The notes under the pieces were generated by a model. That model ran no database searches and was not told the origin of the DNA. It saw only the letters and a program-made list of their open reading frames with translations. This document shows positions 14,942 through 49,008 of a stretch of DNA of 60,589 nt, in pieces (position 1 is the stretch's first letter; each line of letters begins with the position of its first letter). This DNA is from a bacterium (GTDB lineage Bacteria > Actinomycetota > Acidimicrobiia > Spongiisociales > JAENVV01). The position numbers and the translations under genes were made by a program. The stretch spans positions 1 to 60,589 of the forward strand of contig JAHEDI010000093.1 of assembly GCA_024641305.1 (NCBI GenBank), read 5' to 3'.

Positions 14942-15024
14942 GTCGGAGTGGCGGAATGGCAGACGCGCTAGCTTGAGGGGCTAGTGTCCGAAAGGGCGTG
15001 GGGGTTCAAGTCCCCCCTCCGACA
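14942..15024 (+). tRNA. tRNA-Leu (anticodon GAG)
   Basis: An 83-nt class II tRNA. The acceptor strands GTCGGAG and CTCCGAC pair fully with discriminator A. The anticodon stem CTAGC/GCTAG holds a TTGAGGG loop with anticodon GAG. A long variable arm and the T arm GGGGGTTCAAGTCCCCC follow. CCA is not encoded. Its 3' end is the integration site of the downstream element. Confidence 0.96.
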
Positions 15025-15030
15025 CGAACC
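15016..15030. other. Attachment-site core 1 (in tRNA-Leu 3' end)
   Basis: CCTCCGACACGAACC covers the last 9 bases of the tRNA and 6 bases beyond. The same 15 bases recur at 37,452 and 59,888, and the first 14 at 24,436 and 46,872. The tRNA stays intact after integration. Confidence 0.75.
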
Positions 15031-18637: not shown

Positions 18638-18913
18638 ATGGATACTGAAGCCTGGGTCGAGTCGTTAGGCGCCCGGAACTGCATCAATTTCGCCAGGTCT
18701 ACGCCATATGACGAGTTGCCGACGTTGCTGCGCCGGATCGCGAACGATCTGGCCAGCCTGCCGTCTTACCGCATCGTCGGTATGCATGTTGAGCTCTTGG
18801 ATACGGCTGACATGGGTGTATTCCTTAGCTTCGAATCGGACGATCCGGAGTCGTTCGCTCACCTACCTGAGGATTTCGCTTCCCTTCTCATCGGTCAGCT
18901 CGGTGGGGAATGA
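18638..18913 (+). CDS. Candidate immunity protein, LPTLLRR family
   Basis: A small 91-residue acidic protein, family not recognised. ATG 18638 has AGGAAGGA upstream and lies 11 bp after Rhs cassette 1. Its FARSTPYDELPTLLRRIAND block recurs in truncated form at 16,633 and at the start of the protein at 19,057. The position right after a polymorphic-toxin tip and the presence of paralogues are typical of immunity genes; that role is inference. Confidence 0.6.
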   Translation: MDTEAWVESLGARNCINFARSTPYDELPTLLRRIANDLASLPSYRIVGMHVELLDTADMGVFLSFESDDPESFAHLPEDFASLLIGQLGGE

Positions 18914-19056
18914 GATGATGATTGTTGCACCTCGGTATGTGTTCTTTGGTGGTCAACGAGGCGGAGCGACTGTCGGTTCTCGCAGTGGGTTCCTCCGTGC
19001 CGTTGGCAACCTGCGGCGACAGAGGTGGCTTGTGCTGGCAGGTTGGGTGGCTTAAG

Positions 19057-19503
19057 ATGTCGTTGCTGTATTACTCGCGCACCGCACCTGCCGACAAAGT
19101 TCCGACCCTGCTGAGGCGGCTTGCCAACGACGTAAGCAGGCCACTCGTCTCGGTTCTTTCGGTTGTGTTCGACGTGTCCTCGTCTGATGGAAGCGTGACC
19201 GCGACGGTGTTTTTCAGTTTCGACGACGGCGAAGATGAGCTTCGTCATCAGGCCTTGGCTGGCGATCCGGTTGGTGCGAACAACCTGGGGGTCTTGCTTA
19301 AGGACGAAGGGCGCAGAGAAGAAGCGGTGGCTGCGTATCGAGTTGCCATCGATTTGGGGTCCGACACTGCCCTGGTCAATCTTGCCGATCTTCTGGTTCA
19401 CGACGGCCAGGTTGAAGAAGCCCGGCAGCTCCTGATCCGGGCAATGGATCTCGGCGAACCGTCATCTGCCGAACGCCTGGCAGAACTCGAAGAAGGCGAC
19501 TAG
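19057..19503 (+). CDS. LPTLLRR-family domain fused to Sel1/TPR-like repeats
   Basis: The start at ATG 19057 gives MSLLYYSRTAPADKVPTLLRRLAND, aligned with the N-terminus of the preceding gene. The second half (residues about 63-145) has helical repeats (GANNLGVLLKDEGRREEAVA, ALVNLADLLVHDGQVEEARQ), typical of Sel1/TPR solenoids. Frames reach further upstream to 18,922 but without similarity. A fused immunity/adaptor role is plausible; function is unknown. Confidence 0.55.
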   Translation: MSLLYYSRTAPADKVPTLLRRLANDVSRPLVSVLSVVFDVSSSDGSVTATVFFSFDDGEDELRHQALAGDPVGANNLGVLLKDEGRREEAVAAYRVAIDLGSDTALVNLADLLVHDGQVEEARQLLIRAMDLGEPSSAERLAELEEGD

Positions 19504-19536
19504 TCGCAGCCGTTTGGGCGAAAGGCACATTATGCA

Positions 19537-19791
19537 ATGGTCGACTGGTTACTGACGATGAGTCCAAATGGCGGAAATGGGACAAGTGCAGCGTGGCAGT
19601 GGGGGCGCGGGCCGTTATCGGCGCAGGTGGCATCAATGGCCAATGTTGGCGTTGTGCCGTTGGCTTTCTCGTTTTTGTTCATGGCATTGGCGCTATCCGG
19701 GGATGCGCCATGGCCTAACTTGTTTTCGTCCGTCATGCTGCTCGCTGTAGTTCTCATGATTGATCGTTCGCCTCGGTTGGGCCGGGTTTGA
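19537..19791 (+). CDS. Small hypothetical membrane protein
   Basis: 84 residues with two hydrophobic stretches (residues about 35-52 and 62-75). No family recognised. It lies between two Sel1/TPR-like genes. Downstream bases 19,890-19,930 resemble the 3' end of the membrane protein gene at 23,576-24,181 (shared VDGSRRR), so this area may be remnants of a second membrane immunity gene. Confidence 0.35.
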   Translation: MVDWLLTMSPNGGNGTSAAWQWGRGPLSAQVASMANVGVVPLAFSFLFMALALSGDAPWPNLFSSVMLLAVVLMIDRSPRLGRV

Positions 19792-19944
19792 GTCCGGGTC
19801 GTGCATCTCGGTATACAGGGATCCAGTAGTGAAGGTAGCCACCGGCCGCCCCCTGACCATCTGGTACATCTCTCGTAGGCGATCCGAGTCGTCTGGTCTT
19901 GTCGTCGACGGGTCGCGGCGACGAGCACGATTGGTTCTCCTGTC

Positions 19945-20424
19945 GTGAATGATGTGGAATCGCTGAGTCTTCAGTTTGAGGTTGTGCGCGGCTCCGGCGA
20001 TCTTGACGCGGCTTATGAGATTGCGCGTTCGTCGATCGACGTCGGAGATAATTTCCTGGCGATCGAGATCCTTGAGTGGTTGACGGTACGTGGTCATCTT
20101 GAGGCTGCGACTCAGCTTGGGTTCTTATTGAAGGACGACGGTGACGTTGATCGGGCGTTGGGTTTGTTTGGTGGTGCTGCTGACGCCGGGCTCCTGGATG
20201 CTCGTCTGTGTATGGCCGATCTGCTCAGTGAGATACCGGGTCGCGCCGGTGACGCCGAACGCGAGTATCGGTGGGTCCTTGGGGAGCGTCCAGGGGATGA
20301 GTTTGCGATGTTTGACCTGGCGTTGTTGCTGGTTGGTCAAGGCCGGTTGGAGGAAGGTGCGGTACTGTTCCGAAGCTTGGCCGATGCGGGCGATCGGAGC
20401 GCCGCGGTGGAACTAGATGAGTAG
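19945..20424 (+). CDS. Sel1/TPR-like repeat protein
   Basis: 159 residues made of helix-turn-helix repeats: ATQLGFLLKDDGDVDRALGL, ARLCMADLLSEIPGRAGDAE, FDLALLLVGQGRLEEGAVLF. GTG 19945 is the chosen start. The first repeat resembles the solenoid of the protein at 19,057. It ends 10 bp before the IS fragment. Protein-protein interaction is the likely role. Confidence 0.6.
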   Translation: MNDVESLSLQFEVVRGSGDLDAAYEIARSSIDVGDNFLAIEILEWLTVRGHLEAATQLGFLLKDDGDVDRALGLFGGAADAGLLDARLCMADLLSEIPGRAGDAEREYRWVLGERPGDEFAMFDLALLLVGQGRLEEGAVLFRSLADAGDRSAAVELDE

Positions 20425-20434
20425 TTCCAAGGGG

Positions 20435-21019
20435 TTAGTGGTCGTAGGCGATGAGTGATCGGGCGGGGCCTGGCTGGTTGGTGGTTTCGTTGTGCCAGAT
20501 GGCGGCGGTGAGGGCGAGGAGTCGTTGGAGGATGCGGGCGGCTACTCCGGCGGGTTTGCGGCCGCCGTGTCGTTCGAGATCGAGTTGGGCTTTGAGAGTC
20601 TGGTTGACCGATTCGATGATCTGGCGGAAGGGTCGAAGAAACTGTTGGAGGGGACGGGATTGTTCGCCTTTGAGAGCAGGGCGGATCAGGGTGATCCCTG
20701 TTTCGGTGAGTCCGGTCTCGAACCGAGCGGATCGGTAGCCCTTGTCTCCGATCAGGGTCTGGCCGGGCCGGTGAAGGTCGGGGTCGATCGAGATCATCTC
20801 GGCTGCAATATCTCGTTCGTTTTCTTTGGCTCCGGTGAGCGCAAACGCCATCGGCAGTCCTGAGGGGGTGGCGATCAGGTGGAGTCGGAGCCCCCAAAAG
20901 AAGCGGGAATGTGACGCACAGTACCCGTAGGTGGCCCATCCGGCCAGGTCGGATCGTTTGGCGGTTTCTCGGCTGCGTCCGCATTCGACGGGGGTGGAAT
21001 CGACCAGCCAGATGTCGTC
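20435..21019 (-). pseudogene. IS982-family transposase, N-terminally truncated
   Basis: About 195 C-terminal residues of a DDE transposase: WLVDSTPVECGRSRETAKRS with the first Asp, YGYCASHSRFFWGLRLHL, IGDKGYRSA with the second Asp, ESVNQTLKAQLDLERHGGR with the catalytic Glu, and a tail ending AAIWHNE...AYDH. The N-terminal about 90-100 residues are missing; near 21,019 the sequence switches to Rhs DNA, so the IS was cut by recombination. Confidence 0.75.
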
Positions 21020-21022
21020 GGC

Positions 21023-21152
21023 GTGACCGACAACCGAACCGGCCTCACCTGGACGTACGGATACGACACCGTCACCCACCGGATGACCACGATAACCCCA
21101 CCCGGGCAGGCAACCACCACCCTCGCCTTACACGTCGAACAAGCTGACCCAG
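21023..21152 (+). pseudogene. 5' extension of Rhs cassette 2, separated by a frameshift
   Basis: VTDNRTGLTWTYGYD and ITPPGQATTTLA are Rhs repeat sequence in the frame starting 21,023. From about 21,130 the continuation YTSNKLTQVSAPVPGGG is in the next frame. One extra T in GCCTTACACG (21,128-21,129) explains the shift. Confidence 0.6.
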
Positions 21153-23579
21153 GTGTCGGCACCGGTGCCCGGCGGAGGAACCGCCACGACCGCAATTGCC
21201 TATGGAAGCTGGCTCGAAGGCGTAAGGACCACGCTGACCACACCCCGGAACGACGCGTGGGTCTACGACTTCGACACTTCGTCCCGGGTCCGGTACCTCA
21301 CGCCGCCCATCGGTCCAGTCCAAGAAACCACCTGGAACGAACACAACCAGGCGGTCACCAGCCAAACCGACGCCGAAGCGGTAGCCAGCGACCGGACCAC
21401 CCGCACATATTCGTCCGAGGCCGACCAGTGCAACCTGTCGGGAGTGTCGGCTGTCAATGACGGAACCGACCTATGCGCGGTCACCGGCCCGATCCAAGAT
21501 GTTGCCGGCGCCGGACTGGTGCGCCCGGTCACCTCCTACCAATACGACGAAGCCCTCGGGGGTGTCTATCACCTGGTTACCCGTCAGACGAACCCGGACG
21601 GCACCTACGTGGTGTACACGTACGATGCCAACGGCCTGACGGCACGCCAACCATCAACCCAGAAAACCTACTCGTCGGGCGACGTGCTCCTTCAGACCCG
21701 GTCCTACACGTACGACCCGTTCGGGAACACCCTGACCGAAACCGACCCGGCCGGCAACACCACCACGTTCACCTACACTCCCGCCGGCCTGGTCTCCCAA
21801 ATGGCCCGGCCCGGGACACCCACCCGAACGTTCACATACAACACGTGGGGTGGTGTGCTGACCGAAACGTGGCCCGGTTCGGTCACCACCAACACCTACG
21901 ACCCGGCCGGACGACTGTCAACAACCGCCGCTACATCGACCGCTGGCCTGGCCCCGGTCCCGACCGTGACCACCACCTATGATCCGGCCACCGGAGCGGT
22001 CACCTCGATCGGGGACACGTCGGGCACCGTCTCCTACACGTATGACACGTGGGGTCGGATCGTCACCGAAACCGACGCCCTCGGCGAAACCACCACCTTC
22101 GGCTATGACAGCGAATCGAACCTGGTGTCTCGGGCCGACTCGAAAGGCACCACCACGTTTATCGTGGACGCACTCGGCCGGATCACCCAGATCGGCGACA
22201 CCGGCATCGGAACCACCACCGTTTCCTATTCGGCGACGGCCGGGGCGTCGCGGTCGGTCACTTCCTATCCCAACGGGGTGATTGCTACGGCGACGAGTCG
22301 AGTGGCGGCCGGCGACGTCGACACGGTGTCATATACGAACGGAGCAGGTGTGTTGGGTGGGTTCGATCGGGATTATGACGTGTCAGGGCAAGTGGTCCGA
22401 GATGGGGCACCTGATGTGGTTCGAGAATACGACTATGACGATGTGGGACGCCTCGTCGAGGCCCGGGATTATGATCCGGTGACAACTGAGCTGGCCGAAA
22501 CCAGGGAGTATGGGTTTGATGCGAACACGAATCGTACGTCGATGACAACCACTCCCGCCGGTGGGGCTGCCTCTACCGTGACCTATGGGATCGACGCGGC
22601 ATCAGACCGGCTCCTGTCAGTCACCGGCGGTTCGGCACCGGGGCCGGTTTCGTATGATGTGAACGGCAACACGACAGTAATGCCCACACGGACGATCAGT
22701 TGGACAGCGGCCAACCGGATAGCAGCCGTGACGACTGCAGGTGGGGTGACGGTCGGGTACGGGTATGACCCGTTGGGTCGCACCCTGTCTCGGACGGTGA
22801 CCGGGGCGGGCGTGGCCAAGTCGGCTGCGTATCATTATTCGGCTGATGCCGACACTGCATCATGGACGGTTGATGTTGATGCCGGTGTGTCGACGGTAAC
22901 CCGCTATGTGAACGGTGGCGGAGGCCTGTTGGCAACCCAGGTGATTGGTGGGGTGGTGTCGTTCCCGTTGTATTCGCCCCATGGCGACGTGTGGGCGACC
23001 ACCGATGCGACCGGCCTGGTGACCGCCACGTTTTCGTATGACGAGTACGGCAACCCCCTCCAACCAGCTACCGGCAACGCTGGGGTGGATCGGTATGGCT
23101 GGTTGGGTCGTCAACAACGCGAATGGGACCCCGACACCGCCCTCACCCTGATGGGAGTCCGTGGTTACGACCCCACGTTGGGCAGATTCTTGTCGGTTGA
23201 CCCAGTGTATGGGGGATCAGCCAACGCCTACGACTACGTCGGTGGCGACCCCATCAACGGCTACGACCTCGACGGACGCAAGTGCACGACGTCGATTTGG
23301 CACATGTTTGATTGTGTCAAGGCCGTTGCTGTTGTGTTGGTGAGCGCGGCGGCAGTACCTGCCTGGATCGGAGCAGGCGTCCTGATCTGCGGCGTAACCG
23401 CCGTTGTAGGATGCGTGATCGGCGCTGCCTTTTTCGGAGCCGCGGCAGTTGGGCAGGCGTACGGGACCATTCAGGCGGGACGGGGCGTTTACAAGAAGAT
23501 CAGAGGCGACAGTCGCCGGACTTCGAAGTACATGTTTAGGTCGAACCGAAGTGTGAGCCGAAGTGTGAGAAGCCGGTGA
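21153..23579 (+). CDS. Rhs/YD-repeat C-terminal cassette 2 with hydrophobic (pore-like) tip
   Basis: 808 residues with many YD repeats and the same core ending as cassette 1 (GYDPTLGRFLSVDPVYGG). The core DNA of the two cassettes is close to identical over long stretches (for example 22,500-22,720 against 17,560-17,780). The tip of about 100 residues after DLDGR is different: two long hydrophobic helices (residues about 725-775), Gly/Ala-rich, then a basic tail. A membrane-acting toxin is the natural inference. There is no N-terminal export region. Its stop overlaps the GTG of a polytopic membrane protein, a likely immunity protein. Confidence 0.75.
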   Translation: MSAPVPGGGTATTAIAYGSWLEGVRTTLTTPRNDAWVYDFDTSSRVRYLTPPIGPVQETTWNEHNQAVTSQTDAEAVASDRTTRTYSSEADQCNLSGVSAVNDGTDLCAVTGPIQDVAGAGLVRPVTSYQYDEALGGVYHLVTRQTNPDGTYVVYTYDANGLTARQPSTQKTYSSGDVLLQTRSYTYDPFGNTLTETDPAGNTTTFTYTPAGLVSQMARPGTPTRTFTYNTWGGVLTETWPGSVTTNTYDPAGRLSTTAATSTAGLAPVPTVTTTYDPATGAVTSIGDTSGTVSYTYDTWGRIVTETDALGETTTFGYDSESNLVSRADSKGTTTFIVDALGRITQIGDTGIGTTTVSYSATAGASRSVTSYPNGVIATATSRVAAGDVDTVSYTNGAGVLGGFDRDYDVSGQVVRDGAPDVVREYDYDDVGRLVEARDYDPVTTELAETREYGFDANTNRTSMTTTPAGGAASTVTYGIDAASDRLLSVTGGSAPGPVSYDVNGNTTVMPTRTISWTAANRIAAVTTAGGVTVGYGYDPLGRTLSRTVTGAGVAKSAAYHYSADADTASWTVDVDAGVSTVTRYVNGGGGLLATQVIGGVVSFPLYSPHGDVWATTDATGLVTATFSYDEYGNPLQPATGNAGVDRYGWLGRQQREWDPDTALTLMGVRGYDPTLGRFLSVDPVYGGSANAYDYVGGDPINGYDLDGRKCTTSIWHMFDCVKAVAVVLVSAAAVPAWIGAGVLICGVTAVVGCVIGAAFFGAAAVGQAYGTIQAGRGVYKKIRGDSRRTSKYMFRSNRSVSRSVRSR

Positions 23580-24181
23580 TAAGACCTACCGTCCCCGCGT
23601 TCGAGCGGGCGTTGCGTTTGGCGATCCGCCCTCGGTTCCTGGTCCTGCTTGTGCCGCCGCTCATATCGTTGCTGTTGCCGTCTCTTGTGAGTCGGTCGGG
23701 ATTCGCCGACTCCGTGTTCATGCTGCATTTCGGCGCTGCGATCTTCGTAAACATGACCGTGTTGGTCGGCGTCTCAGCCCTGCCCGCCTCTCATCCGTAT
23801 CGCACCGAAATGGTCCGGAATGTGTTACCGAATCTGTGGGCATTCCTAATCTTCCTGCCTCTGTTCGTCGTACTTGAACCATCGCCATCGACTGTCTGGT
23901 ACGGGTTTTCTTTGGCTTCAGCTGGCGTGATCAACCTGGTCGTCCATCGAAAAGTGCTGATACCGCCCAGCTGGGGCCCATCGTTTCCGATGTTTGCTTT
24001 CACTGCCGGTCTGGGTGCTATCGCTGCAGTCGGGGCGTCGTCGCACTTCGACAACGGAATGTTTGAGACCGAGATGCTCTATGGGCTGTATGGGCTCTTC
24101 AGCAGCCTCGCAGTCGATGGATCGCGGCGACGAGCAGAGGTGCTTGCCGATGGCTCAGAATCGGACAGCGCGGGTTCGTGA
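23576..24181 (+). CDS. Polytopic membrane protein, candidate immunity to the cassette 2 tip
   Basis: 201 residues with about five hydrophobic segments (residues about 20-38, 47-66, 85-102, 107-125, 138-158) and a charged C-terminus. No family recognised. Its GTG overlaps the Rhs stop (GTGA), so translation is coupled to the toxin cassette. Membrane-located immunity opposite a hydrophobic toxin tip follows the logic of known pore-forming systems; this is inference. Confidence 0.6.
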   Translation: MIRPTVPAFERALRLAIRPRFLVLLVPPLISLLLPSLVSRSGFADSVFMLHFGAAIFVNMTVLVGVSALPASHPYRTEMVRNVLPNLWAFLIFLPLFVVLEPSPSTVWYGFSLASAGVINLVVHRKVLIPPSWGPSFPMFAFTAGLGAIAAVGASSHFDNGMFETEMLYGLYGLFSSLAVDGSRRRAEVLADGSESDSAGS

Positions 24182-24368
24182 CGGTATCGATCTGTGTTAT
24201 GGATCAAGTGTCGATTTGGCCTGGCAGCGGGACCGGTTAGGAATGTGAACTATCGGGTCGATGCCGGGTCGGATCGGCTCACCCTAAGGTCTGCGGCCCC
24301 GCTGCCGATAGCTCGGCCGTCAACGAGAATAGACCCCGAAACCGAAGCCCTTACACGGTGTGCGAGCC
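24182..24368. other. Intergenic region between module A and module B
   Basis: About 190 bp between the membrane protein stop and the recombinase stop. No gene is visible. Confidence 0.4.
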
Positions 24369-26063
24369 TTATCGCTCTGTGATTGAGTAAGCCCTGGCGA
24401 GTGGTGGCGGACGTGTAGTCAGCACCGGTATCGGTCCTCCGACACGAACGTTAACCCCACGCGGACTCATCTCGACTGAGACGCGGCCTTCGGGGTGGTA
24501 GGTCAGGTTCACTCCTAGTTCTCCGTAGAGGTCTGCTTTGTCTTGGGGGTCGGCTTCGGACAGGACAGTGACGATATCGCGGAGGGCGCCGATCAGAGCC
24601 CGAACTTGTGAGCTGGTGAGCTTTCCACCGGGGATGGTGTGACCGAGCTGAGCTTGCAGGTTGGCCCGTTCCCGATGAACTTGTGCCATCCAGCGGGCCA
24701 CCAGTTTGGCGTCAGCGCCCTCGTCGAGGACTGCCTGGTATTGGCCAAGACGACGATCACAATCGTGGATCTGTTTGGTGAGTGCGGTCTTGCGGGCTTC
24801 GTCCTCGACGCTGGGTTGTGAAACACCGGCGAGGATCTCAGAGGTTTCCTCGAGGTGCTGGTCGTCGAAGAGGGATCCAAGCCACTGGTCGAGGCCCGGG
24901 GTCACTGCGGCTTCTTTGACGTAGACGTTGCGGGGATGCTGGGCCGGTCCGACGCCGTACTCTTCGGGGAACTTGCACCGGTAGTAGGGTCGATCATGGT
25001 TCTGCTGGCCGGCCATGCGCCTCCCGCAAACACCGCATCGGATGAGACCGGAAAGCAAGTAGCGACTGCCGGAGCGGCGCGGGGCCCGACTGGTGGGTCG
25101 ACCGAACGCTTCCTGGGCGGCTCCAAACAGGTCTGGGTCGATGATCGGTTCGTGGACGGCATGCTCGGACCACACCCATTCGTCGGGGTCGTTCCAGCGC
25201 ATCTTGGTCTGATGTCCGAGCGCCACGTCCCCGACGTCGACGAGAACCTCTTCGCGTCGTTGTCGGTTCCACACTTGGCGGCCGGTGTAACGGGGGTTCT
25301 TGAGGATGGCCCGCACCGCCGACTTCGCCCAGACCCCGTGCCCGCCTGCCCGGTGTCGGTTGCGATCCGGGTCATGGGCAGACGGGGAGAGGATGCCTGC
25401 TTCGGTCAGCCCTTTCGCAATCGCGTAAAGACCTTTCCCGGCCGCGAACTCCTCAAAGATCCTGACCACCACCGGTGCCGCAAGGGGGTCCGGTTCGAGG
25501 CGTTTCAATGTTTGTCCGGTGGCTGCTTTGGACGGGTTGGGGTGGGGACCGGCCGCAGCAATCTGGTAGCCGTAGGGTGGCCGACCGCCCAGGAAGCGGC
25601 CTTCGATCGCTGCTTGGGAGGCCATCGCTGAGCGGACCCGGGTTTTGATGCGGTTGCGTTCGCCTTTGCTCATCCCCCCATACAGGTTCATGACCATTTC
25701 GTGAGCGTCCGATCCTGGGTCGACCGCACCACCAACTTCGGGCACCCACAACCCGACGCCGTAATGGACGAAGACGGGGAAGGTGAGTCCGAACTGGTTG
25801 CCATAGAACGCTCGTTGGGGTTCGCCGATGACCACACTGTCGAACCCCCGGGTCGGGTCGGCGAGAGCGTGAAGGAGTTGGGTGGCTGCTGGACGACGGG
25901 ACCAGGGCAAAGAACGTGATTGGCCAATGTCGAAGAATTCGGTGACGATTTCGCCGCCGGCCGGGTCGATGAGTTGCCGGGATCGGGCGAGTTGCCAGTT
26001 ACGCGACGATTCGGGGTCTTGTTGGTCTTCGGTGGAGACCCGACCGTAGAACGCGAATCGCAT
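24369..26063 (-). CDS. Large serine recombinase (integrase)
   Basis: A 564-residue site-specific recombinase. The N-terminal resolvase domain begins RFAFYGRVSTEDQQDPESS with the nucleophilic Ser in GRVST, followed by Arg-rich catalytic segments. The recombinase domain (GRFLGGRPPYGYQIA, PVVVRIFEEFAAGKGLYAIA) follows at about 155-290. A zinc ribbon CGVCGRRM near 345 has its partner in YYRCKF, a coiled coil runs from about 410 to 470, and a C-terminal tail closes it. It should integrate and excise the element by a Ser-linked mechanism. Its start codon overlaps the stop of a small upstream ORF (TAATG). Its 3' end contains the att core. Confidence 0.93.
   Translation of the reverse strand: MRFAFYGRVSTEDQQDPESSRNWQLARSRQLIDPAGGEIVTEFFDIGQSRSLPWSRRPAATQLLHALADPTRGFDSVVIGEPQRAFYGNQFGLTFPVFVHYGVGLWVPEVGGAVDPGSDAHEMVMNLYGGMSKGERNRIKTRVRSAMASQAAIEGRFLGGRPPYGYQIAAAGPHPNPSKAATGQTLKRLEPDPLAAPVVVRIFEEFAAGKGLYAIAKGLTEAGILSPSAHDPDRNRHRAGGHGVWAKSAVRAILKNPRYTGRQVWNRQRREEVLVDVGDVALGHQTKMRWNDPDEWVWSEHAVHEPIIDPDLFGAAQEAFGRPTSRAPRRSGSRYLLSGLIRCGVCGRRMAGQQNHDRPYYRCKFPEEYGVGPAQHPRNVYVKEAAVTPGLDQWLGSLFDDQHLEETSEILAGVSQPSVEDEARKTALTKQIHDCDRRLGQYQAVLDEGADAKLVARWMAQVHRERANLQAQLGHTIPGGKLTSSQVRALIGALRDIVTVLSEADPQDKADLYGELGVNLTYHPEGRVSVEMSPRGVNVRVGGPIPVLTTRPPPLARAYSITER
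24436..24449. other. Internal att-like core inside the recombinase 3' end
   Basis: CCTCCGACACGAAC matches the tRNA-Leu 3' end and the element boundaries but lies within recombinase codons for VRVGG. It marks the boundary between the two modules of the unit. Confidence 0.55.
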
Positions 26064-26260
26064 TACGAATCCGAGCGTAGCGGACCGTCAGACCGCGGAG
26101 CAGTATCCGTCTTCTCGAACCGTTCTTGTGCTCGCAGCAGGATACGCAACAACACTCCGGCGGCAGTCTGATTGAGGATGGGTGGTCCGGTGGTTTCGAC
26201 TACGACCCGACCCGTATCGCTTCTCAGTCGATCGGTACTCGGAGCCTCAGGCTGTTCCAT
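26063..26260 (-). CDS. Small protein coupled to the recombinase
   Basis: 65 residues, no named family recognised. The centre (LNQTAAGVLLRILLRAQERF) is a likely amphipathic helix. Its TAA stop overlaps the recombinase ATG (TAATG), so translation is coupled. It could regulate recombinase synthesis or activity; this is inference from position. Confidence 0.55.
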   Translation of the reverse strand: MEQPEAPSTDRLRSDTGRVVVETTGPPILNQTAAGVLLRILLRAQERFEKTDTAPRSDGPLRSDS

Positions 26261-26279
26261 GCCAACAGACTGCGATAGG

Positions 26280-26572
26280 ACCCTGTCAGCAGAGTGTCAA
26301 GAACCCTTTCAACAGAGTTTCCGTAACCCTTTCAACCACCGTCGGTTCCGGGACGTTGCCACCGGATCGGTCGACGGGTCGAAGGGGAGCGACCGCCTCG
26401 AATGACACTCGGCTGACAGGGTAAATGACACTCTGCTGACAGGGTTGGCGGGTAAGCGGACGGTTTGACAGGGTTTTTGAAACTCTCCTGAAACTCTGTT
26501 GAGAGGGTTGGCGGGTAAACGGTCGGCGATGGCCGCGATGTTGGAGGGTTTTTGACACTCGGATGACAGGGT
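26280..26572. repeat. Cluster of about 20-bp repeats upstream of the recombinase
   Basis: Consensus TGACACTCTGCTGACAGGGT. Plus-strand copies lie at 26,403-26,422, 26,426-26,445 and 26,553-26,572, with a variant at 26,489-26,508 and a half copy at 26,466-26,474. Minus-strand copies lie at 26,280-26,299 and 26,303-26,320. A second motif GGTTGGCGGGTAAGCGG recurs after two of them. They could be recombinase accessory sites, regulator binding sites or iterons. Confidence 0.7.
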
Positions 26573-27066
26573 TAGGGGCGAACGTTCCTGCATGTCGTTG
26601 GCAATGCGCTCCAATCAGTTCTCGAAACGGTCCAGCTGTCGGATCTCGAGCTTTCCGGCGATGTCGGAGCAGCCATGGACCCGGCCGGCTCAGACCGCCG
26701 GAGAGCGGCTCAGGGAGGTTAGGACGCCCGATCTGCGGTCGGTACGGCTGGTAAGCACACGGTACCCGTACCGGCTGCCCGGGGGACCGCCGTTGCACAC
26801 CGCAGGCCAAATTCCCGCAAGGGGCTCGAATGCCGACCTCGACGATCACACGGGCACCCCTGGGGGAATCCCGACTCGCAAGAAACCACGAGAACCGAAA
26901 CCAAGGAAAGGATGATCCCATGCAAAGCGCAGGACCGACCATGAGACAAGAAGACCGAACTCAGACATCGCCCACTCGCAACGCGATCGCGCACAGAACC
27001 CTGTCAACACCACACGCACGTGCAACAAGTTGCCGCCGGTCAACTGGTTTACCGGTGAGGTGAAGC
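26573..27066. other. Non-coding stretch before the SEC-C gene
   Basis: About 490 bp. No convincing gene is visible. Close to the SEC-C start lie two inverted repeats, GCAACAAGTTGC (27,022-27,033) and CCGGT/ACCGG (27,036-27,055), possible operator sites. One further ACCCTGTCA half-repeat lies near 27,000. Confidence 0.4.
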
Positions 27067-27513
27067 ATGGGATTGGATCGTGGAGCGCTGGCGAAGATTG
27101 ACCGTCGGGTATTCGCCGAGCTCAGGCACACCGTGGGGACTCAAACGGTCAAGGTTCCGTTGTCGGATGCGGTCTGGTCCACGTGGCGACGGTATTGCCA
27201 GGCGGTCGGGTTGACGATGGGAGAGGGCATCGCCGGTTTGGTCGCCCAGGAACTCGGCACCCTCGTGAACGACGACGGGCACCATGGAGGGGTGTTCACT
27301 CCAGAGCTGCAGCGGCGGCTGGTTGCCAGGTCTGAGGCTCTCGAGATTCGGGAACGGCGACTGGACGAACGAGAGCAGTCGCTGAACGCATCGGAGTGTC
27401 TCCTGCGGGCCCAAACGAGACCACTCGAGGTGTCAGCTAGGTCGAGTGTCGGAAGCAAAGATCCCTGCCCATGCGGGTCTGGTACCAAGTACAAGCGCTG
27501 CCACGGCAACTGA
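27067..27513 (+). CDS. SEC-C metal-binding domain protein
   Basis: 148 residues. The N-terminal part (VKVPLSDAVWSTWRRYCQAV, residues about 28-65) is helical and may bind DNA or protein. A coiled coil ([17 protein letters not shown]) follows, and the C-terminus is the SEC-C zinc motif [21 protein letters not shown] motifs bind zinc and occur in SecA and many other proteins. Its pairing with the recombinase recurs as remnants at 15,025-15,380, so the two probably form a functional module. Confidence 0.8.
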   Translation: MGLDRGALAKIDRRVFAELRHTVGTQTVKVPLSDAVWSTWRRYCQAVGLTMGEGIAGLVAQELGTLVNDDGHHGGVFTPELQRRLVARSEALEIRERRLDEREQSLNASECLLRAQTRPLEVSARSSVGSKDPCPCGSGTKYKRCHGN

Positions 27514-27534
27514 TCTGCTACCGGGAGTGAGTTT

Positions 27535-27834
27535 ATGGATGTGTCTGATACATCCTGGTCCGGGACGCTGGTGGTTGCCTCTAGCCGTCCGGGTAGTGAA
27601 GGATATGTGCACCGTTCCGGCAGCACTCTCTCAACAACATTCTGGCATGCCCTTCGGGATCAACCTGATGACGTTGTTCCGACCTACCCCGACATTCCGT
27701 TTCCGGAACTCTCTTGGTCCACTCCGCGCATCGGTACGCCTCTTGTACGGGGGGCGCCGATCGTCACGGTGGCCCGCAACCAGTGGCACAGTCAAGTTCG
27801 TATACCTGGATCCCATCTGTGGTTACGGTCGTAA
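27535..27834 (+). CDS. Uncertain hypothetical ORF
   Basis: 99 codons starting ATG with GGGAGTGAG upstream, 21 bp after the SEC-C stop. No family recognised. Its last 70 bp overlap the convergent lipoprotein gene, so it may be spurious or a remnant. Confidence 0.25.
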   Translation: MDVSDTSWSGTLVVASSRPGSEGYVHRSGSTLSTTFWHALRDQPDDVVPTYPDIPFPELSWSTPRIGTPLVRGAPIVTVARNQWHSQVRIPGSHLWLRS

Positions 27835-28888
27835 GGTAAGCCACTCCCGTGGGAGGGTCGATCGTGAGGTGCCCGACCGACCCCGAATCGAACTCGCCGA
27901 GTGGGTTTGGCGTCGGAGCGGTCAGGACTTCGCCGGCCGGTGAGATTCTGACATACACGGAGAGTTGGGTGTTTTCAGCCTTACTGGACAGGCCATAGAA
28001 CAGAAGGTGAGTGTTCCCGAGTTCGTCTGTCTCATACTCCACAATGCCGAACGCAGCCCCACCGTCGTTTGGTTTCAGGATCAAACGGATTCTGAGCGGC
28101 TCGCTTAGGGGGTCCGGGTCGGCGACCCACACCTCGGCCGTGTCATGGGCGATCATCTCGACCGAATAGGCTTGACCAGACCGCGAGGTAAACGCATCGA
28201 CTCTGGCCACATCTAAACCGGTCGCTTTTGGCGTTACCGAGTATCGGGAGTTCCCCAACATTGGTGTCGCATAGGCAACTCCTCCGGCGGTCGTGACCAG
28301 CTCGAACGTCGTCGGATCGGTGTCTTGGTACTCGACTTGGCCGGCGTCGATGCGTAACAACGCCGGTCGAGAGGTTGAGGCCATCACGACCCCACCTTCA
28401 GTCACTTGGAGGCCAAAGACCGACGACGTAACAGCAGTCTCGAAATCCTCTAGGAACCGGCCATCCGAGTCGAAATGGACGATTCGGAACCGATCAGTGT
28501 CCGGTACCCACCACGAGCCATCCATGCCACGTGCGGGCAGCTCCGGGCCATGGCCTGGCCCGGCACCGAGGCCAGCTGGTTCGTCGCCGTAGCCGAGCAG
28601 CAGAACCTGGTCCCATTCAGTGTCGTCTGCCGACTCCGGAAATGGGATTACGACCTCAATGACTTCGTCCTGTATGGGCACGCTCGTAGGCGTCACGCCG
28701 ACCGTAGTGACTGGCTGCTCTCCCGAACCGGTCGAAGGCTCATCGGTGGTGACGGTATTCGCCTCGGTCGTAATCGTGGCCCCATCACCGATAGTTTGGT
28801 TGGTCGGGGCACATGCCACTAACCAAACCGACAAAGCGACCACCATTACTGAGAAACGAGTCAGCTGCAAGTCCCGTCCCACGCGCAC
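27764..28888 (-). CDS. Lipoprotein with probable beta-propeller domain
   Basis: 374 residues with a lipoprotein signal ending VWLVAC (lipidated Cys near residue 26) and a Thr-rich linker. Repeated blade-like segments follow, such as WWVPDTDRFRIVHFDSDGRF and GVVMASTSRPALLRIDAG. No catalytic motif is seen. It overlaps the upstream wall-hydrolase gene by 28 bp, forming the last gene of a three-gene minus-strand operon. Confidence 0.7.
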   Translation of the reverse strand: MRVGRDLQLTRFSVMVVALSVWLVACAPTNQTIGDGATITTEANTVTTDEPSTGSGEQPVTTVGVTPTSVPIQDEVIEVVIPFPESADDTEWDQVLLLGYGDEPAGLGAGPGHGPELPARGMDGSWWVPDTDRFRIVHFDSDGRFLEDFETAVTSSVFGLQVTEGGVVMASTSRPALLRIDAGQVEYQDTDPTTFELVTTAGGVAYATPMLGNSRYSVTPKATGLDVARVDAFTSRSGQAYSVEMIAHDTAEVWVADPDPLSEPLRIRLILKPNDGGAAFGIVEYETDELGNTHLLFYGLSSKAENTQLSVYVRISPAGEVLTAPTPNPLGEFDSGSVGHLTIDPPTGVAYLTTVTTDGIQVYELDCATGCGPP

Positions 28889-29514
28889 CCTCCTGATCGC
28901 CGAACGCCGTTATAGGAACTACTTCCTCGATAGGTCCGTGACCATAGTCCTGTACCCGACGCCTCGGACTTGGCTTCGATGATATTGTCCGTGTTGGCAG
29001 TTGATGTCGTGGTGTAAATCATCCCGACATGATCGCTACTGGCGAATGCGTCCATGTAGATCGCCGAGCTCTTAGAGACGTTCGAGAAAGCGACTCCACC
29101 TGCCTTATAGTCCGCTGCCGTATAGGGTCCGTGAACCCGGTGCATTCGGGGCCAGCTGTGGAATCCTGTCTGACCGTACGTGACCTTCAAACCCCAGGAC
29201 TTGAAGGTGAAGCCAGAGCAATCGCCGCCCTCACCGTGGGTTCCTTCTGTCTGTTGCGGGTCGCCGGGTTGATCGTCGACATCGTTGCTGTTCCAACATC
29301 CGCCTCCCCAGTGGTATCCCTCATACCTGCCTACTAAGGCGTAGCTTCGCGCCTGGGAGCGAGTCCATACTGACAAGCTGGAGTCTGTGTTCGTATTGCA
29401 TGTGTCGTAGAAGTTGTGCGCGGTGGCAGCGGGGGTGGCGAGTATCGCGACCGTAGCGGCGAAACCTAGAAACAACCCGACCAGTGATCTAGAAAGGCTG
29501 CTGACCGTTTTCAT
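28861..29514 (-). CDS. Secreted NlpC/P60- or CHAP-like cysteine peptidase
   Basis: 217 residues with a signal peptide (about 1-32, AATVAILATPAATAHN). The motif GEGGDCSGFTFKSWG has the probable nucleophile Cys99, DHVGMIY the His162, and NIIEAKSE a candidate third residue near 180. This is the arrangement of papain-fold peptidoglycan hydrolases or amidases. Its start overlaps the stop of the upstream propeller gene (ATGA). It lacks a wall-binding domain. Substrate is inferred from the family. Confidence 0.7.
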   Translation of the reverse strand: MKTVSSLSRSLVGLFLGFAATVAILATPAATAHNFYDTCNTNTDSSLSVWTRSQARSYALVGRYEGYHWGGGCWNSNDVDDQPGDPQQTEGTHGEGGDCSGFTFKSWGLKVTYGQTGFHSWPRMHRVHGPYTAADYKAGGVAFSNVSKSSAIYMDAFASSDHVGMIYTTTSTANTDNIIEAKSEASGTGLWSRTYRGSSSYNGVRRSGGCAWDGTCS

Positions 29515-31025
29515 GATTGTGTGCCCCTTTGCGCTGGGGCGATTGACGGCAAGACGAATCTGGCAATCGAGAAGCCTTCCTTGCTTGATCGCAGTTGGTA
29601 CAGCGCGTTGCCCTCGACCTCGAATCGGCCGAGGACCGCAGAGTCTGCGAAGTCTGCGGAGTCGACTGTCATGTGATTCGTTAGCTCGCGGCCACTAAAC
29701 ACAAGTACTTCGAATGCATCAGATGTCTCCGACCATGTACGAAGGACCACGATCAACTGGCCTCCATGAATCTCGGCCAGTTGCAGCTCGCCGATCTTGC
29801 GGTCTGACGTGATTCGCCAGACTGAACGGGGCTGGTTATCGATCACCAATGCCAACTGAGCAAGCTCAGCTGTCACCGACACCACAAGCTTCGACGCGAC
29901 CAACTCCCCGGGAGAAAACCCCTGAGCAATCGAGTCGCGCTCGGCTTGCGTGAGGTCGCGTCCAATCGTAACCGGCTCCAGTTGTGCTAACCCTGATACT
30001 GGTGTCACGTCGCTATCAAATGCTTTCGCCCAGAAGTTTGTGATGCCGTCGAGGACAATCAGGCGTCCCCCCTCGGCCATCAGACCCTCGGGTACAACCC
30101 CGGCGAGCGATGACGATGCGATCTTCATGCCGGATGAGTCGACGAGATCCACTTGCGCCGTCCTACCCGCGCCTTGATCGAGAATGTACATCTCGCCCGT
30201 GGAGCTGATCGAAATGTCGCCTTCGCCGCCGGAGTGATCGAGAGAAATCAATTCTCGAGAGAACCCGTCTGCAGATACAACGACGAGCCGACTGTTAACT
30301 CGATCCAGGATCATGGCCGACCCATCAGGACGAAAGTCAAATGCAGATGGGCCGATCCAATCGGCCCCACCACCGCCAGCGAGTCCGAACGAGTCAGAAT
30401 CCGATCCCCACACGCCGCTGACGAGTATGGAGTCAGGGTCAACAGAACCCGTTGGCACTCCAAGGTGAAGGGGCAGTGAGTCGTCATACTCCCACACTGT
30501 ATGGAAGCTGGAGCCAGACGGCACACGGACTATGTCACCCGACACGTGGTCGACGAGCTCGGCATAGTAATCGACTGAGCCTTTAATGAAGCTTGCTGGG
30601 ATTCGCGCTTCCAAGCCAGGAGTTCCTGCCCGCTGCGCGATCAGTTGAAACGCCTGAAAGTCTTGCGATAGCCCAGACTTCGCGAAGAGGGTTCCCGAGG
30701 GTTGACACCATTCGGTGCCCGTCCGACCCTCCAGAACGTCATCCCACCCACACACCAGATCGTAGGTGAGAACCACGTCTCTGCCAGCCTCGATAAGCGC
30801 CGGAGGTTTGTGGTAACCCTGGGCGGTCTCCCGTTGTGCGGCGTTGTCAACATCCCCTGTCGCCATGCTGAAAGGAACTGCGAACGCGATCCCAACCACG
30901 AGGCCGAATGCCATGGGACTGCGCATCCTGCCTGGCCGTCCATCCGTCGGCAAGGAAACTCCCGGGAACCGTAGCTGTCCTCGATTCCGAGTTCGATTTG
31001 ACCAAGGCCAGTGTATTGTCGCCAT
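29511..31025 (-). CDS. Exported membrane-anchored protein, NHL/beta-propeller-like
   Basis: 504 residues. A cytoplasmic N-terminus of about 37 residues precedes a hydrophobic anchor (MAFGLVVGIAFAVPFSMATG). The exported part has blade-like repeats: FDFRPDGSAMILDRVNSRLV, GDISISSTGEMYILDQGAG and similar. A Cys pair (CGWDD..., EWCQPSG) precedes them. No enzyme motif. It is coupled to the cysteine peptidase gene by ATGA overlap. Confidence 0.7.
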   Translation of the reverse strand: MATIHWPWSNRTRNRGQLRFPGVSLPTDGRPGRMRSPMAFGLVVGIAFAVPFSMATGDVDNAAQRETAQGYHKPPALIEAGRDVVLTYDLVCGWDDVLEGRTGTEWCQPSGTLFAKSGLSQDFQAFQLIAQRAGTPGLEARIPASFIKGSVDYYAELVDHVSGDIVRVPSGSSFHTVWEYDDSLPLHLGVPTGSVDPDSILVSGVWGSDSDSFGLAGGGGADWIGPSAFDFRPDGSAMILDRVNSRLVVVSADGFSRELISLDHSGGEGDISISSTGEMYILDQGAGRTAQVDLVDSSGMKIASSSLAGVVPEGLMAEGGRLIVLDGITNFWAKAFDSDVTPVSGLAQLEPVTIGRDLTQAERDSIAQGFSPGELVASKLVVSVTAELAQLALVIDNQPRSVWRITSDRKIGELQLAEIHGGQLIVVLRTWSETSDAFEVLVFSGRELTNHMTVDSADFADSAVLGRFEVEGNALYQLRSSKEGFSIARFVLPSIAPAQRGTQS

Positions 31026-31377
31026 AACCGAAAACCACCTCTCGAGTCTCTCTTCCGAACTCTCTTTAGTCCTACTGTTTGTTCGTGGACTTCAGACGGT
31101 TCTCGGTAAGGCCCGAGCGTCGTTTGCTCCCGCGCCTACTTTGCTGGTGGGCTGAGTCTGAACGGCATGGGGATTGTTGCAGGCCTCTCAACGTGTGGGA
31201 CTGATCCGAGCCCGGGGTGGGGCCGCCGTTAGAGACGTCACCCTCCAACGCCATCGCCTCCGTGGCCCCAAAAATTCTGACCGCAGCGATCGGTGCGATC
31301 ACTCGCCGCCGAGCTTCAACAAGCATCGCTGGCACCCCAACAGGTGGGTGATCCGCAGCACGGTCGGGTTCCGAGTT
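31026..31377. other. Intergenic region between the sigma operon and the propeller operon
   Basis: About 350 bp with no convincing gene. It should hold the promoter for the propeller-peptidase-lipoprotein operon; no -10/-35 pair is clear enough to name. Confidence 0.4.
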
Positions 31378-32346
31378 CTACCGGTTATCAGGCTCCGCGA
31401 CGATCATCGTCGGTTCGTAGTCCATGCCCTCGATAACGGTGTTGGGTGGGATGCCTAGGCCAGGGTCGCCATCAATGTTGACGGTGCGTCGAGAAACCAC
31501 CTTTCCGGCGCCGTCGAGGACGAAGGTCAGGGATCCTTCGTGTGGGGTGGAGTAGGTAATCGAGAAGGTGCTGGTGCCGTCGGTGCCTTGGACCAAGTGA
31601 AGGTCGTTTAGGCCAGCTAATGCTCGCAGTGCCGCGGCTCGCAAGTCGGGACTGGCAGAGGATTCGCTGATAAGGCTCAGCGCTACGTGGGCGACATCGA
31701 CGTCAGCGGGCATCACCGAACCAGGCTGGAACGTGTCTTCAATGGCTGTCTTGAGTGCATCGGGTTCGGTTGGCCAGTCCCGTTCGTCAAGAATCGATGT
31801 GCCACCGGTGACGGTCTGACTGGTGGTTTGGCCTACCTGATCGACTTTATCGAGCTGGGCTTCGTAGTAGTCCACCTTGTCCTGTGGTGCGAAGAAGACC
31901 GGTGAGTTAGTTGTTGTCCTGATCTGAACGGTATTCTCGCTCCCAACCCAGATTTCTCGAGTCTGAGGGAGTAGATAGGCCATTGGTGAAGTTCGGCCGG
32001 CGAACGCGTCTGCCGGTACGGTTCCTAACACCACCACTTCTGACTTTGTGTAAGCGTATGACTGTGGGGGAATGGTCAACGGGTCAGCCAGTTCTGCCGC
32101 TTGGGCGATTTCGAGCAGCGTCGCTCTCGCTGGCGATGGCTTGACCACTTGTATGGCAACAATCACAACTACCAGGCTCAGCGACACCGCCAGGGCCGGG
32201 ACCGCCCATTTCCGTCGGCGTGTTTGGTTTGAGCTTTCGTTGGCGATCGCCTGCGCGAGTGCGTTCCTCGCTAAAGCCGCATCAGCATTCGTAGGCGATG
32301 GACTCCCGGCGAGCGTCCGCAAGAGAATGTCAATCGGATTGGTCAC
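31378..32346 (-). CDS. Membrane protein paired with ECF sigma factor (anti-sigma-like, CU044_5270-like)
   Basis: 322 residues with a short cytoplasmic N-terminus, one membrane helix (WAVPALAVSLSLVVVIVAIQ, about 47-68) and a large outer domain. The layout and 4-bp overlap with the ECF sigma gene fit a transmembrane partner controlling the sigma factor. No zinc-binding anti-sigma HxxxCxxC motif is present, so it may act differently. Confidence 0.7.
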   Translation of the reverse strand: MTNPIDILLRTLAGSPSPTNADAALARNALAQAIANESSNQTRRRKWAVPALAVSLSLVVVIVAIQVVKPSPARATLLEIAQAAELADPLTIPPQSYAYTKSEVVVLGTVPADAFAGRTSPMAYLLPQTREIWVGSENTVQIRTTTNSPVFFAPQDKVDYYEAQLDKVDQVGQTTSQTVTGGTSILDERDWPTEPDALKTAIEDTFQPGSVMPADVDVAHVALSLISESSASPDLRAAALRALAGLNDLHLVQGTDGTSTFSITYSTPHEGSLTFVLDGAGKVVSRRTVNIDGDPGLGIPPNTVIEGMDYEPTMIVAEPDNR

Positions 32347-32960
32347 GAGCCAACCTCTTCGTCGGGGACTTGATCGGGGTGGTTAGGTGTGGACGGGTCG
32401 AATGCCGTGAGGAGTCCTTCGTGTTCGCGAAGTTTGCGCCGGGCCCGGGCGAGCCGTGAGCGAACGGTGCCGATTGGGGTTCCGAGCGCCTCAGCGACCT
32501 CCTGATAGGTGAGCTGCTCTACCGCGTACAAGATCAGCACATTGCGGTCGGTTGTCGACAGGCGGGCCAGACCGTCGTTGAGGACCCGGCCGATCCTTTG
32601 AGCATCGATCTTATCGACCGACCGGTCGAAAGGGTCCGGCGATTCGACCCTGACACCGGAAACGGCCAAATAGAGGCGATCGGCTCGGCGTTGGCGACGG
32701 ATTTCATCGCCAACAATATTGGTGGCGATCCCGTACAACCACGGCCGACAGTTGGGCCGACTCGCGTCGTAGCGGGCCCGGAACCTGAACGCTCGAACAA
32801 ACACATCGGCAGTCAAATCAGGAGCCTGATCGAGGCCTTGACGCCGGGCAACGTACCGAAAAATGGTGTCGTGGTAGCGGTCGAAGATCACGCCAAAGAC
32901 CTCCGGGTGGGCCAGCGACCGCGAGATGATATTGGCGTCAGAGGCTTCGCGGTCGTCCAC
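32343..32960 (-). CDS. ECF-family RNA polymerase sigma factor
   Basis: 205 residues. Region 2: FGVIFDRYHDTIFRYVARRQ through DLTADVFVRAFRFR and PWLYGIATNIVGDEIRR. Region 4: LSTTDRNVLILYAVEQLTYQ and EVAEALGTPIGTVRSRLARA, the helix-turn-helix for -35 recognition. GTG 32960 is the start. It probably turns on the exported cargo of module B; that target is inference. Confidence 0.93.
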   Translation of the reverse strand: MDDREASDANIISRSLAHPEVFGVIFDRYHDTIFRYVARRQGLDQAPDLTADVFVRAFRFRARYDASRPNCRPWLYGIATNIVGDEIRRQRRADRLYLAVSGVRVESPDPFDRSVDKIDAQRIGRVLNDGLARLSTTDRNVLILYAVEQLTYQEVAEALGTPIGTVRSRLARARRKLREHEGLLTAFDPSTPNHPDQVPDEEVGS

Positions 32961-32999
32961 CGCGACACGCTACCTGGACCACGGACTCCTTGCTGATCG

Positions 33000-33542
33000 C
33001 TAGTGGTAGGAAACAGACTCGGCCATGTTGTTAAGGGTCGACAGATTATTAGTTGTGCCTGCACCGTACGTGTCCTGAAAGGAGCCACCCTTGTTGGGGA
33101 GGTTGTAATGACGGAGTCGGCTGCATCCGTTGTACGAAGACGAGATCCGATTAGACCAAGACGAACCCGTATTCCACCAGCCACCGGTACATGACGACCC
33201 GACCACAGTAATCGAGCTACCCGACCCTCCAGAGCCGTCAAAATGGATGCCCAGCGCGAACGATGACATTGCCGCAATGAGATTCGCGTCTTCGAACATG
33301 ACCGAGCCTTCGCTGGACTCAGCCAAGCTGATCGTGCCTCCGCTTGCCATTGAAACTGCGTCAGCGAACGTGGCGAAACAGGTTGGCTTGCTCGCAACAA
33401 GCTCACGCGTCTCAAGCTCATCGATGACATTAACAACACAATGGGCCTCTCCCTCGATGGGCCGTGCGGACGCCCATCCGGGGGTTGCCAGCAGGAACGC
33501 GGCGACAACACCGACGACTAGGACACGCCTTTTCACGGTCAT
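33000..33542 (-). CDS. Secreted beta/gamma-crystallin-like (inhibitor I36-like) small protein
   Basis: 180 residues with signal peptide (RRVLVVGVVAAFLLATPGWA) and a GGAGGAAG ribosome site. The C-terminal domain (GWWNTGSSWSNRISSSYNGC, then RHYNLPNKGGSFQDTYG and LNNMAESVSYH) has the W..RISS...GC and late repeat pattern of actinobacterial crystallin-fold secreted proteins, some being protease inhibitors or killer toxins. It lies 39 bp upstream of the sigma gene. Confidence 0.7.
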   Translation of the reverse strand: MTVKRRVLVVGVVAAFLLATPGWASARPIEGEAHCVVNVIDELETRELVASKPTCFATFADAVSMASGGTISLAESSEGSVMFEDANLIAAMSSFALGIHFDGSGGSGSSITVVGSSCTGGWWNTGSSWSNRISSSYNGCSRLRHYNLPNKGGSFQDTYGAGTTNNLSTLNNMAESVSYH

Positions 33543-34435
33543 TTGCTTCCTCCATCGGTGATGACCTGTCGCAACGGTGTTTGTCGGAGATTGGAATCAG
33601 GTTCTCGGAGAACCGAAATCGGTCCTCGTACGAACACCCTGGTGGGGAGTCGATAGTCGGGTTTGTCGATTCTCCATCGGTGCCCGGCTGTCGCCTCCCC
33701 GAACCGGTCAAGCGTGACCAAGGCGCGTTAGTACGACGCTGGACGGGTCCGGTGAGGTACCAAGGGGGGCCTAATGCTCAAGATATCCGCCAGTCGGTGT
33801 CACCTATTAGCCGCCGCGATTAATGCGGTGGCTCGTGTTCCTGTTGGTGGCCGGTTTCGCGCGTCTCCGTCGCAGCAAGCTGAAGCTACGAGGCCATAGG
33901 AGTCGAAGAATGTTGCGGCCAACACCAAACCATTGGTGTCGTGGCGAACCTCGGGTCCCGATATGACGACGGATCCGTTTACATCGAGAGTGGACCTTTC
34001 GACTTCGTAGCAGCCGCAAGAATGTCAGATACACGACTCGAGAAGAATGGCTTTCGCCTCGCCCGGGGCGGAACAACTTGTGATTTTCGAGTGTGGATCC
34101 AGCTGGTACGTAGCTGAATACTTGAAGAATGGCTTGAAGGCCGAGGTGCCGCTCGAAGCAACGAGCTTGCACTTGACGGACTTGCTTGCGAACCATCCTG
34201 ACTTCTTGCTTGTTGCGATCCGCCGCAAGGCACGGGACCGCGACGTTTTCTGAACCGACAAGAGGAGTTTGCTCGGAGAACTGAAATGGACGATGGGACA
34301 AACAGTCGTTTGGGGAGTCGATCGTCGGGTTTGTTCGATCTCCATCGGTCCCTTGGACTTGGGATCCCAAAAGAGGGGGCAGCCAGAGTTTTGTGACCGG
34401 CGAGAAGCTCCAGCCACCGAGAAACGGAGAACCAG
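33543..34435. other. Divergent intergenic region with direct repeats and degenerate gene
   Basis: Nearly 900 bp between two oppositely oriented exported-protein genes. Two similar 75-bp blocks lie at 33,607-33,681 and 34,275-34,349. GGTTCTCGGAGAACC at 33,600-33,614 is an inverted repeat. Between the blocks, plausible secreted-protein fragments appear in three different plus-strand frames (a signal-like MRWLVFLLVAGFARL near 33,824, YDDGSVYIESGPFDFVAAAR near 33,960, and a 68-codon frame 34,047-34,253), which suggests a decayed gene. Confidence 0.45.
33810..33832. promoter_or_regulatory. Hairpin
   Basis: GCCGCCGC, a 7-nt loop GATTAAT, then GCGGTGGC gives an 8-bp stem with one G-U pair. No T-tract follows, so a terminator is uncertain. 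Confidence 0.35.
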
Positions 34436-48715: not shown

Positions 48716-49008
48716 ACCCTGTCAGCAGAGTGTCAAGAACCCTTTCAACAGAGTTTCCGTAACCCTTTCAACCACCGTCGGTTCCGGGACGTTGCCACCG
48801 GATCGGTCGACGGGTCGAAGGGGAGCGACCGCCTCGAATGACACTCGGCTGACAGGGTAAATGACACTCTGCTGACAGGGTTGGCGGGTAAGCGGACGGT
48901 TTGACAGGGTTTTTGAAACTCTCCTGAAACTCTGTTGAGAGGGTTGGCGGGTAAACGGTCGGCGATGGCCGCGATGTTGGAGGGTTTTTGACACTCGGAT
49001 GACAGGGT
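48716..49008. repeat. About 20-bp repeat cluster (copy 2)
   Basis: Same seven TGACACTCTGCTGACAGGGT-type copies as at 26,280-26,572. Confidence 0.68.

Follow-up and report, generated by a model that had tools for sequence, protein, structure and literature searches.

A TGACA repeat array as a likely divergent promoter-operator shared by integrative elements

The window, by which we mean the whole 60,589-nucleotide stretch of DNA analysed here, holds at positions 26280-26572 an array of short repeats that, judged by its sequence, is a real and well-defined regulatory element. A 20-bp motif recurs in it at fixed distances from start codons, and in related genomes the same motif accompanies transfer and recombination operons. 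We think it likely that the array is the divergent promoter-operator of an integrative element, shared and probably activator-dependent. In the mechanism that we propose, the promoter-proximal 20-mer, with its two direct TGACA half-sites, would cover a leaderless promoter from about -39 to -20; a DNA-binding protein would probably line up head to tail on the half-sites, at intervals of one helical turn, and, once bound, would let the housekeeping RNA polymerase start at a weak -10 (xAnnnT) that has no recognisable -35. Upstream copies at multiples of 11.5 bp would extend protein binding. The leftward promoter would drive the operon of the 65-aa protein and the recombinase, and the rightward promoter the SEC-C transcript. 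The transcription starts (derived from the start codons), activation over repression and a common protein are what we infer from this arrangement.

Array layout and genomic setting

A weight matrix, applied in locus L127 and converted to window coordinates, places seven copies of TGACACTCTGnTGACAGGGT in the array, two on the minus and five on the plus strand (Table 1). At up to 3 mismatches the 20-mer has 5 matches at 26280-26572 and another 5 at 48716-49008, where 0.02 are expected by chance (shuffles, whole window). The motif is made up of two TGACA half-sites 11 bp apart, which recur in steps of about 11.5 bp, and a larger repeated unit of 63-64 bp starts at 26426, 26489 and 26553. The preliminary description, made from the letters alone, had reported seven repeats in both orientations outside any coding feature, and both statements are borne out by the repeat search and the weight matrix, the array lying between the start of the 65-aa gene at 26260 and, on the opposite side, the next start codon at 26592. 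It had also listed a second motif, GGTTGGCGGGTAAGCGG, which is real (with twin copies at 48879 and 48942) but not separate: as the 3' flank of the 63-64-bp unit it was copied along with the 20-mer.

Table 1. Features of the array, its flanking genes and the integration site, in window coordinates
Feature	Position	Strand	Remark
tRNA-Leu(GAG)	14942..15025	+	integration target
Large serine recombinase	24369..26063	-	Resolvase + Recombinase + Zn ribbon
Attachment core CCTCCGACACGAAC	24436..24449	+	within recombinase 3' end
65-aa protein	26063..26260	-	first gene of leftward operon; overlaps start of recombinase (ATGA)
-10-like box CAGTCT, leftward promoter	26267..26272	-	consensus position A28/T32
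20-mer TGACACTCTGCTGACAGGGT, proximal site of leftward promoter	26280..26299	-	0 mismatches
Second minus-strand site GGAAACTCTGTTGAAAGGGT	26303..26322	-	23 bp upstream of proximal site
Motif site	26403..26422	+	23 bp upstream of 26426 site; 20-mer search
Motif site, first of three 63-64-bp units	26426..26445	+	20-mer search
Second motif GGTTGGCGGGTAAGCGG, copy 1	26443..26459	+	3' flank of duplicated unit
Weak motif site	26478..26497	+	11-bp half-site register with 26489 site; weight matrix
Motif site, second 63-64-bp unit	26489..26508	+	3 mismatches
Second motif GGTTGGCGGGTAAGCGG, copy 2	26506..26522	+	3' flank of duplicated unit
Mini-ORF MAAMLEGF*	26529..26555	+	eight codons; between units 2 and 3
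Proximal site of rightward promoter	26553..26572	+	1 mismatch to 20-mer
-10-like box GAACGT, rightward promoter	26580..26585	+	locus reading
ORF, putative coding	26592..26915	+	opens at predicted start of rightward transcript
SEC-C protein	27067..27513	+	downstream of rightward promoter; domain match
Exact array twin	48716..49008		second copy of 22,436-bp tandem unit

The 65-aa protein has this same length in every serine-type locus read, and a family search with it gave no match. Most SEC-C homologues have an array 200-600 bp upstream. The leader at 27002-27066 and 18 other SEC-C leaders share a conserved CACACGCACRTGCAACAAGTTGC just before the gene, in many of them followed by a palindrome, TGTCTACATGTAGACA; leader and palindrome together are perhaps an operator, an RNA hairpin or oriT. 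Eight-codon ORFs are a further feature of the array units: the one between units 2 and 3 has as its stop the first TGA of the following site, units in L053-L056 likewise enclose such ORFs (MSVELEGY*), and the ORFs of this kind (MAAMLEGF, MSVELEGY, MTAKLEGS) begin at the predicted transcription start and terminate in the TGA of the next site.

The array is part of a larger duplication, of which the preliminary description made no mention. A 22,436-bp unit is present twice in tandem at 99.98% identity (15002-60029), and its ends coincide with copies of the tRNA-Leu attachment core, which occurs at 15016 (in tRNA-Leu), 24436 (in the recombinase 3' end), 37452, 46872 and 59888. The duplication is probably a tandem integration by the serine recombinase, although an assembly artefact could also produce it. 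In sequence, the window can be parsed into tRNA-Leu, an element A (15016-24436), an element B (24436-37452) and a second A and B. Element B has an intact recombinase-array-SEC-C module; in element A a relic at 15064-15396 retains the 3' ends of the recombinase and SEC-C genes, about 2.7 kb having been deleted, array included. At several loci the 3' end of tRNA-Leu(GAG) supplies the codons of the recombinase C-terminus (VRVGGGT* or similar), so that the recombinase stop codon lies inside the tRNA gene; such an overlap is seen at 24369-24450 and in L054, L130, L131 and L132. Tyrosine-type elements are located at many other tRNAs. Element B also has apparent cargo at 31378-32960, a gene that by eye encodes an ECF-like sigma factor, together with its neighbour.

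Promoter geometry and distribution across related genomes

The geometry was read from 130 non-redundant sites, 101 of them gene-proximal. Copies nearest a gene are oriented towards that gene, and at 51 of the 101 gene-proximal copies an ATG stands 39 or 40 nt from the motif start, as compared to a mean of 2.9 at other offset pairs; with GTG and TTG included, the count is 60. A -10-like xAnnnT lies at +27 to +32 from the motif start, the A...T pair at +28/+32 being present at 59 of the gene-proximal copies versus 0-11 at other offsets. When excisionase starts are aligned, a motif with a matrix score above 20 is found at -39/-40 in 22 of the 27 xis genes. Same-strand copies are spaced by 11, 22/23, 34 and 46 bp, i.e. 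by multiples of about 11.5 bp. The -10-like box, with 6 nt between its end and the start codon, takes up the usual place of the ribosome-binding site, so the promoters look leaderless. If the start codon is also the transcription start, gene-proximal copies would occupy -39 to -20, the place of the -35 box; the consensus has a weak -10 and no recognisable -35.

Written as one 42-nt pattern, TGACA-N6-TGANAGGGT-N8-ANNNT-N6-ATG with up to 3 mismatches allowed, the promoter has 7 matches in genome G000, all on contigs C59 and C69 (reversed control: 0), and 22 in G009 (reversed control: 1), and none of the host promoters of G000 match it. In the window the full pattern is perfect, with 0 mismatches, both at the leftward promoter, whose ATG (26260) is 39 nt from the first base of the proximal 20-mer, and at the rightward one up to ATG 26592, with SEC-C following. 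The copies at 26403, 26426 and 26489 have no good -10 or lie far from a gene.

Beyond the window, the 20-mer was found in 21 of 59 related genomes (a reversed-pattern control was near zero), mostly on tRNA-integrated mobile elements, and an exact scan of genome contigs returned 25 stretches, most from records labelled Acidimicrobiia or Actinomycetes. Neither viral contigs (exact motif scan) nor phage and Rfam searches gave a match; a plasmid search returned one 56-bp match, near the SEC-C motif, and a literature text search with the oligonucleotide produced noise only. We fetched 40 array loci, called their genes and clustered them. The arrays are intergenic, most of them having a leftward and a rightward cluster, and their neighbours include a tyrosine integrase with an HTH_17 excisionase, a serine recombinase with the 65-aa protein, a TrwC/MobF relaxase, an ArdC-DnaG primase, SEC-C proteins and a T4SS operon (sigma-like protein, TcpC, VirB4-like). 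At about 49-97 kb of one G009 contig there is an ICE-like cluster, comprising Tad-like and T4SS genes as well as VirD4, TrbL, a relaxase and a primase; within it the motif precedes int/xis, the primase, and both the pilus/transfer and the VirB4 operon. As most loci examined were retrieved by the motif itself, they overstate how common it is among such elements at large; no motif match was obtained at several related integrase loci. A regulator array, one of the roles suggested in the preliminary description, is supported both by the fixed distance to the -10-like box and start codon and by the position of the motif before integrase, relaxase, primase and secretion operons.

Of the recombinase matches, ten include residue 1 of the query; two of these are the window twins, and the motif lies upstream in all 8 independent homologues with an intact 5' end. 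Matches that lack the 5' end have no motif, bar one overlapping fragment, which shares its contig with a 5'-intact recombinase. The earlier proposal to look for the repeat beside serine recombinases in other genomes, where its absence would have counted against a role, was thus answered in its favour at eight of eight independent loci; the motif recurs upstream of these genes but is not specific to them.

Related IS-like elements are inserted into arrays at at least 3 loci (L011 7054-8410, L063 4965-6224, L070 484-1718); we read them as putatively IS481-like, and their ends, TGTCACACAT, resemble half-sites. The copy on C69 was considered as a 1.5-kb IS and rejected as such: it is an array invaded by an IS-like element (by eye IS481-like).

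Since the element is common to full ICEs, to mobilizable elements and to small islands, whose integrases differ, one signal could co-induce them. That one hitherto undescribed activator and one promoter code co-induce the mobilome of an actinobacterial order (ICEs, mobilizable elements, small islands), with the islands as satellites listening to an ICE or host signal, seems to us possible rather than probable. If true, induction would be common to elements whose integrases are unrelated (tyrosine and serine) and which occupy many tRNA genes, and a single factor is predicted to switch on unrelated elements, as AcaCD and SetCD do in Gammaproteobacteria. The relatives are labelled Acidimicrobiia, a poorly studied and mostly uncultured group in which it offers a sequence handle to find and order integrative elements; with about 20 specified positions, the promoter code is sharp enough for biochemical capture of the regulator.

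Alternative readings and candidate binding proteins

With the same geometry, the array could be an operator at which a repressor silences int, relaxase and transfer genes for as long as it is present. Silencing is the usual state of integrated elements, and cooperative repression goes well with multi-site arrays; furthermore, sites over -39 to -20 would block polymerase, and a repressor overlapping the promoter would produce a similar geometry. However, a weak -10 without a recognisable -35 suits activator-dependent promoters better, and the small elements read showed no repressor gene in common. Direct repeats at -39 to -20, a weak -10 and no -35 are found in SARP targets as well, which favours activation, and we regard repression as unlikely.

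Somewhat less probable still is that the repeats bind the excisionase (HTH_17 Xis), which would serve as both directionality and transcription factor and act in trans on the serine-type elements. The xis gene lies immediately behind a motif site, relatives of Xis such as BldC and RdfS bind head to tail one turn apart and regulate transcription, and 7 of the 8 genomes having the serine recombinase also hold the tyrosine-integrase type. This is difficult to reconcile with L066, where a very different excisionase has the same site upstream, and with L151, L153 and L161, which have a similar Xis yet no site; in addition, serine-type elements encode none, and the motif is found at operons remote from att as well.

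Accessory recombination (resolvase or directionality-factor) sites of the serine recombinase, another suggestion of the preliminary description, would agree with the motif's presence at every one of the eight independent recombinase loci that retain a 5' end, but we hold this very improbable, and as a general role it is unsupported. The motif is as common beside tyrosine integrases and relaxase, primase and T4SS operons, including operons far from any integrase, and is neither specific to nor located at the recombination site: the attachment core lies at the opposite gene end, in the tRNA or recombinase 3' end, 1.8 kb from the array in the window (1.3-2.8 kb from array to tRNA end among loci measured), and the array is not the crossover site. 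Replication iterons, also proposed at first, or a decayed transposon-end array (MITE), to which the inverted outer copies ACCCTGTCA...TGACAGGGT lend the look of terminal repeats, are hardly credible, as iterons would have an adjacent initiator gene and one array per replicon and here no replication-initiator gene was seen beside the arrays, each element has several, each tied to a start codon, and contents and spacings between copies vary while start-codon distances do not, which also led us to reject insertion-sequence ends.

For the favoured reading, an activator-dependent promoter, we examined SARP, excisionase, SEC-C, sigma-like and PafBC candidates as the binding protein, and none fits every genome. 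BTAD/SARP genes occur in 44 of the 59 genomes; from one site-bearing genome to another the hits vary in size and in score, and judged by these two measures a single SARP common to all would seem improbable. A SARP seems unlikely as the binder: no motif lies near the BTAD genes fetched, and in G030, which is 89% complete and has sites, the BTAD search found none. The sigma-like first gene of the T4SS operon was rejected as regulator, being present in only 5 of the 59 genomes, with sites in many that lack it; in L048, L051, L071 and L074 this gene has a weak ECF sigma match (E 0.004-0.02). Of about 15 site-bearing genomes, 11 have a full-length SEC-C protein; it was rejected because it is missing in site-bearing G004, G021, G035 and G051. 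A ribbon-helix-helix reading of its N-terminus found no Pfam or PDB support, and its AlphaFold model is poor (pLDDT 63). PafBC was rejected as recA promoters carry a different motif. These promoters (L202-L223) have a LexA-like CGAAC-N4-GTTCG box and then TTGTCACAC-N8-TAnnnT, which is PafBC-like.

Comparison with known systems

PafBC (RecA-NDp) promoters have a consensus of a TTGTCRGTG-like motif, N8 and TAnnnT. The array motif is likewise followed by N8 and xAnnnT, so the spacing fits, but its sequence does not, and the PafBC-like host recA promoters are without the 11-bp repeat. PafBC / RecA-NDp promoters are of the sigma-adaptation type (PMC11804915). BldC and RdfS form cooperative direct-repeat arrays one helical turn apart, RdfS doing so at ICE genes (PMC11963761). 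The present arrays resemble their operators in head-to-tail order, one-turn spacing and association with ICE genes, but RdfS sites are without a clear consensus whereas the array motif has a strong one. The hallmarks of AICEs are RepSA-type replication and FtsK-like TraB transfer; the full ICE carries TrwC, VirD4, VirB4 and TrbL instead, and AICEs are reported to be absent from this subclass.

In the AfsR box, two 11-bp direct repeats at -40 to -19 (centre -29.5) precede a weak -10, with the 3' repeat 8 bp from the -10 and the activator between DNA and sigma region 4 (PMC10936776). The array shares with SARP (AfsR) boxes a step of about 11 bp between direct repeats, a weak -10 and the lack of a good -35: SARP repeats are spaced 11 (or 22) bp, which agrees with the same-strand series given above, and the distance of 8 bp recurs, TGACAGGG ending at offset 18 and xAnnnT beginning at 27. 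The centre would agree if transcription starts at the start codon. Unlike SARP boxes, the array has another repeat sequence and long inverted arrays, its pair-to-pair step is commonly 23 and not 22 bp, and its promoters would drive leaderless genes of mobile elements; no BTAD gene was found in the elements read.

In the AcaCD/SetCD systems one activator motif stands before xis, relaxase and transfer operons and is common to IncA/C plasmids, SXT/R391 ICEs and unrelated genomic islands (PMC4207636, PMC4344509). Here, too, one motif serves ICE transfer genes and the recombination genes of unrelated islands, although motif, phylum and integrases are unrelated, and no FlhDC-like (AcaCD-type) activator, which in those systems the helper encodes, was seen among the ICE genes read. 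The array appears to work like a SARP/AcaCD-type activator box; membership of either class would depend on its binding protein, and we place it in neither. It is probably a shared, activator-dependent promoter element, and its regulon logic would be of a known kind, that of AcaCD and SetCD.
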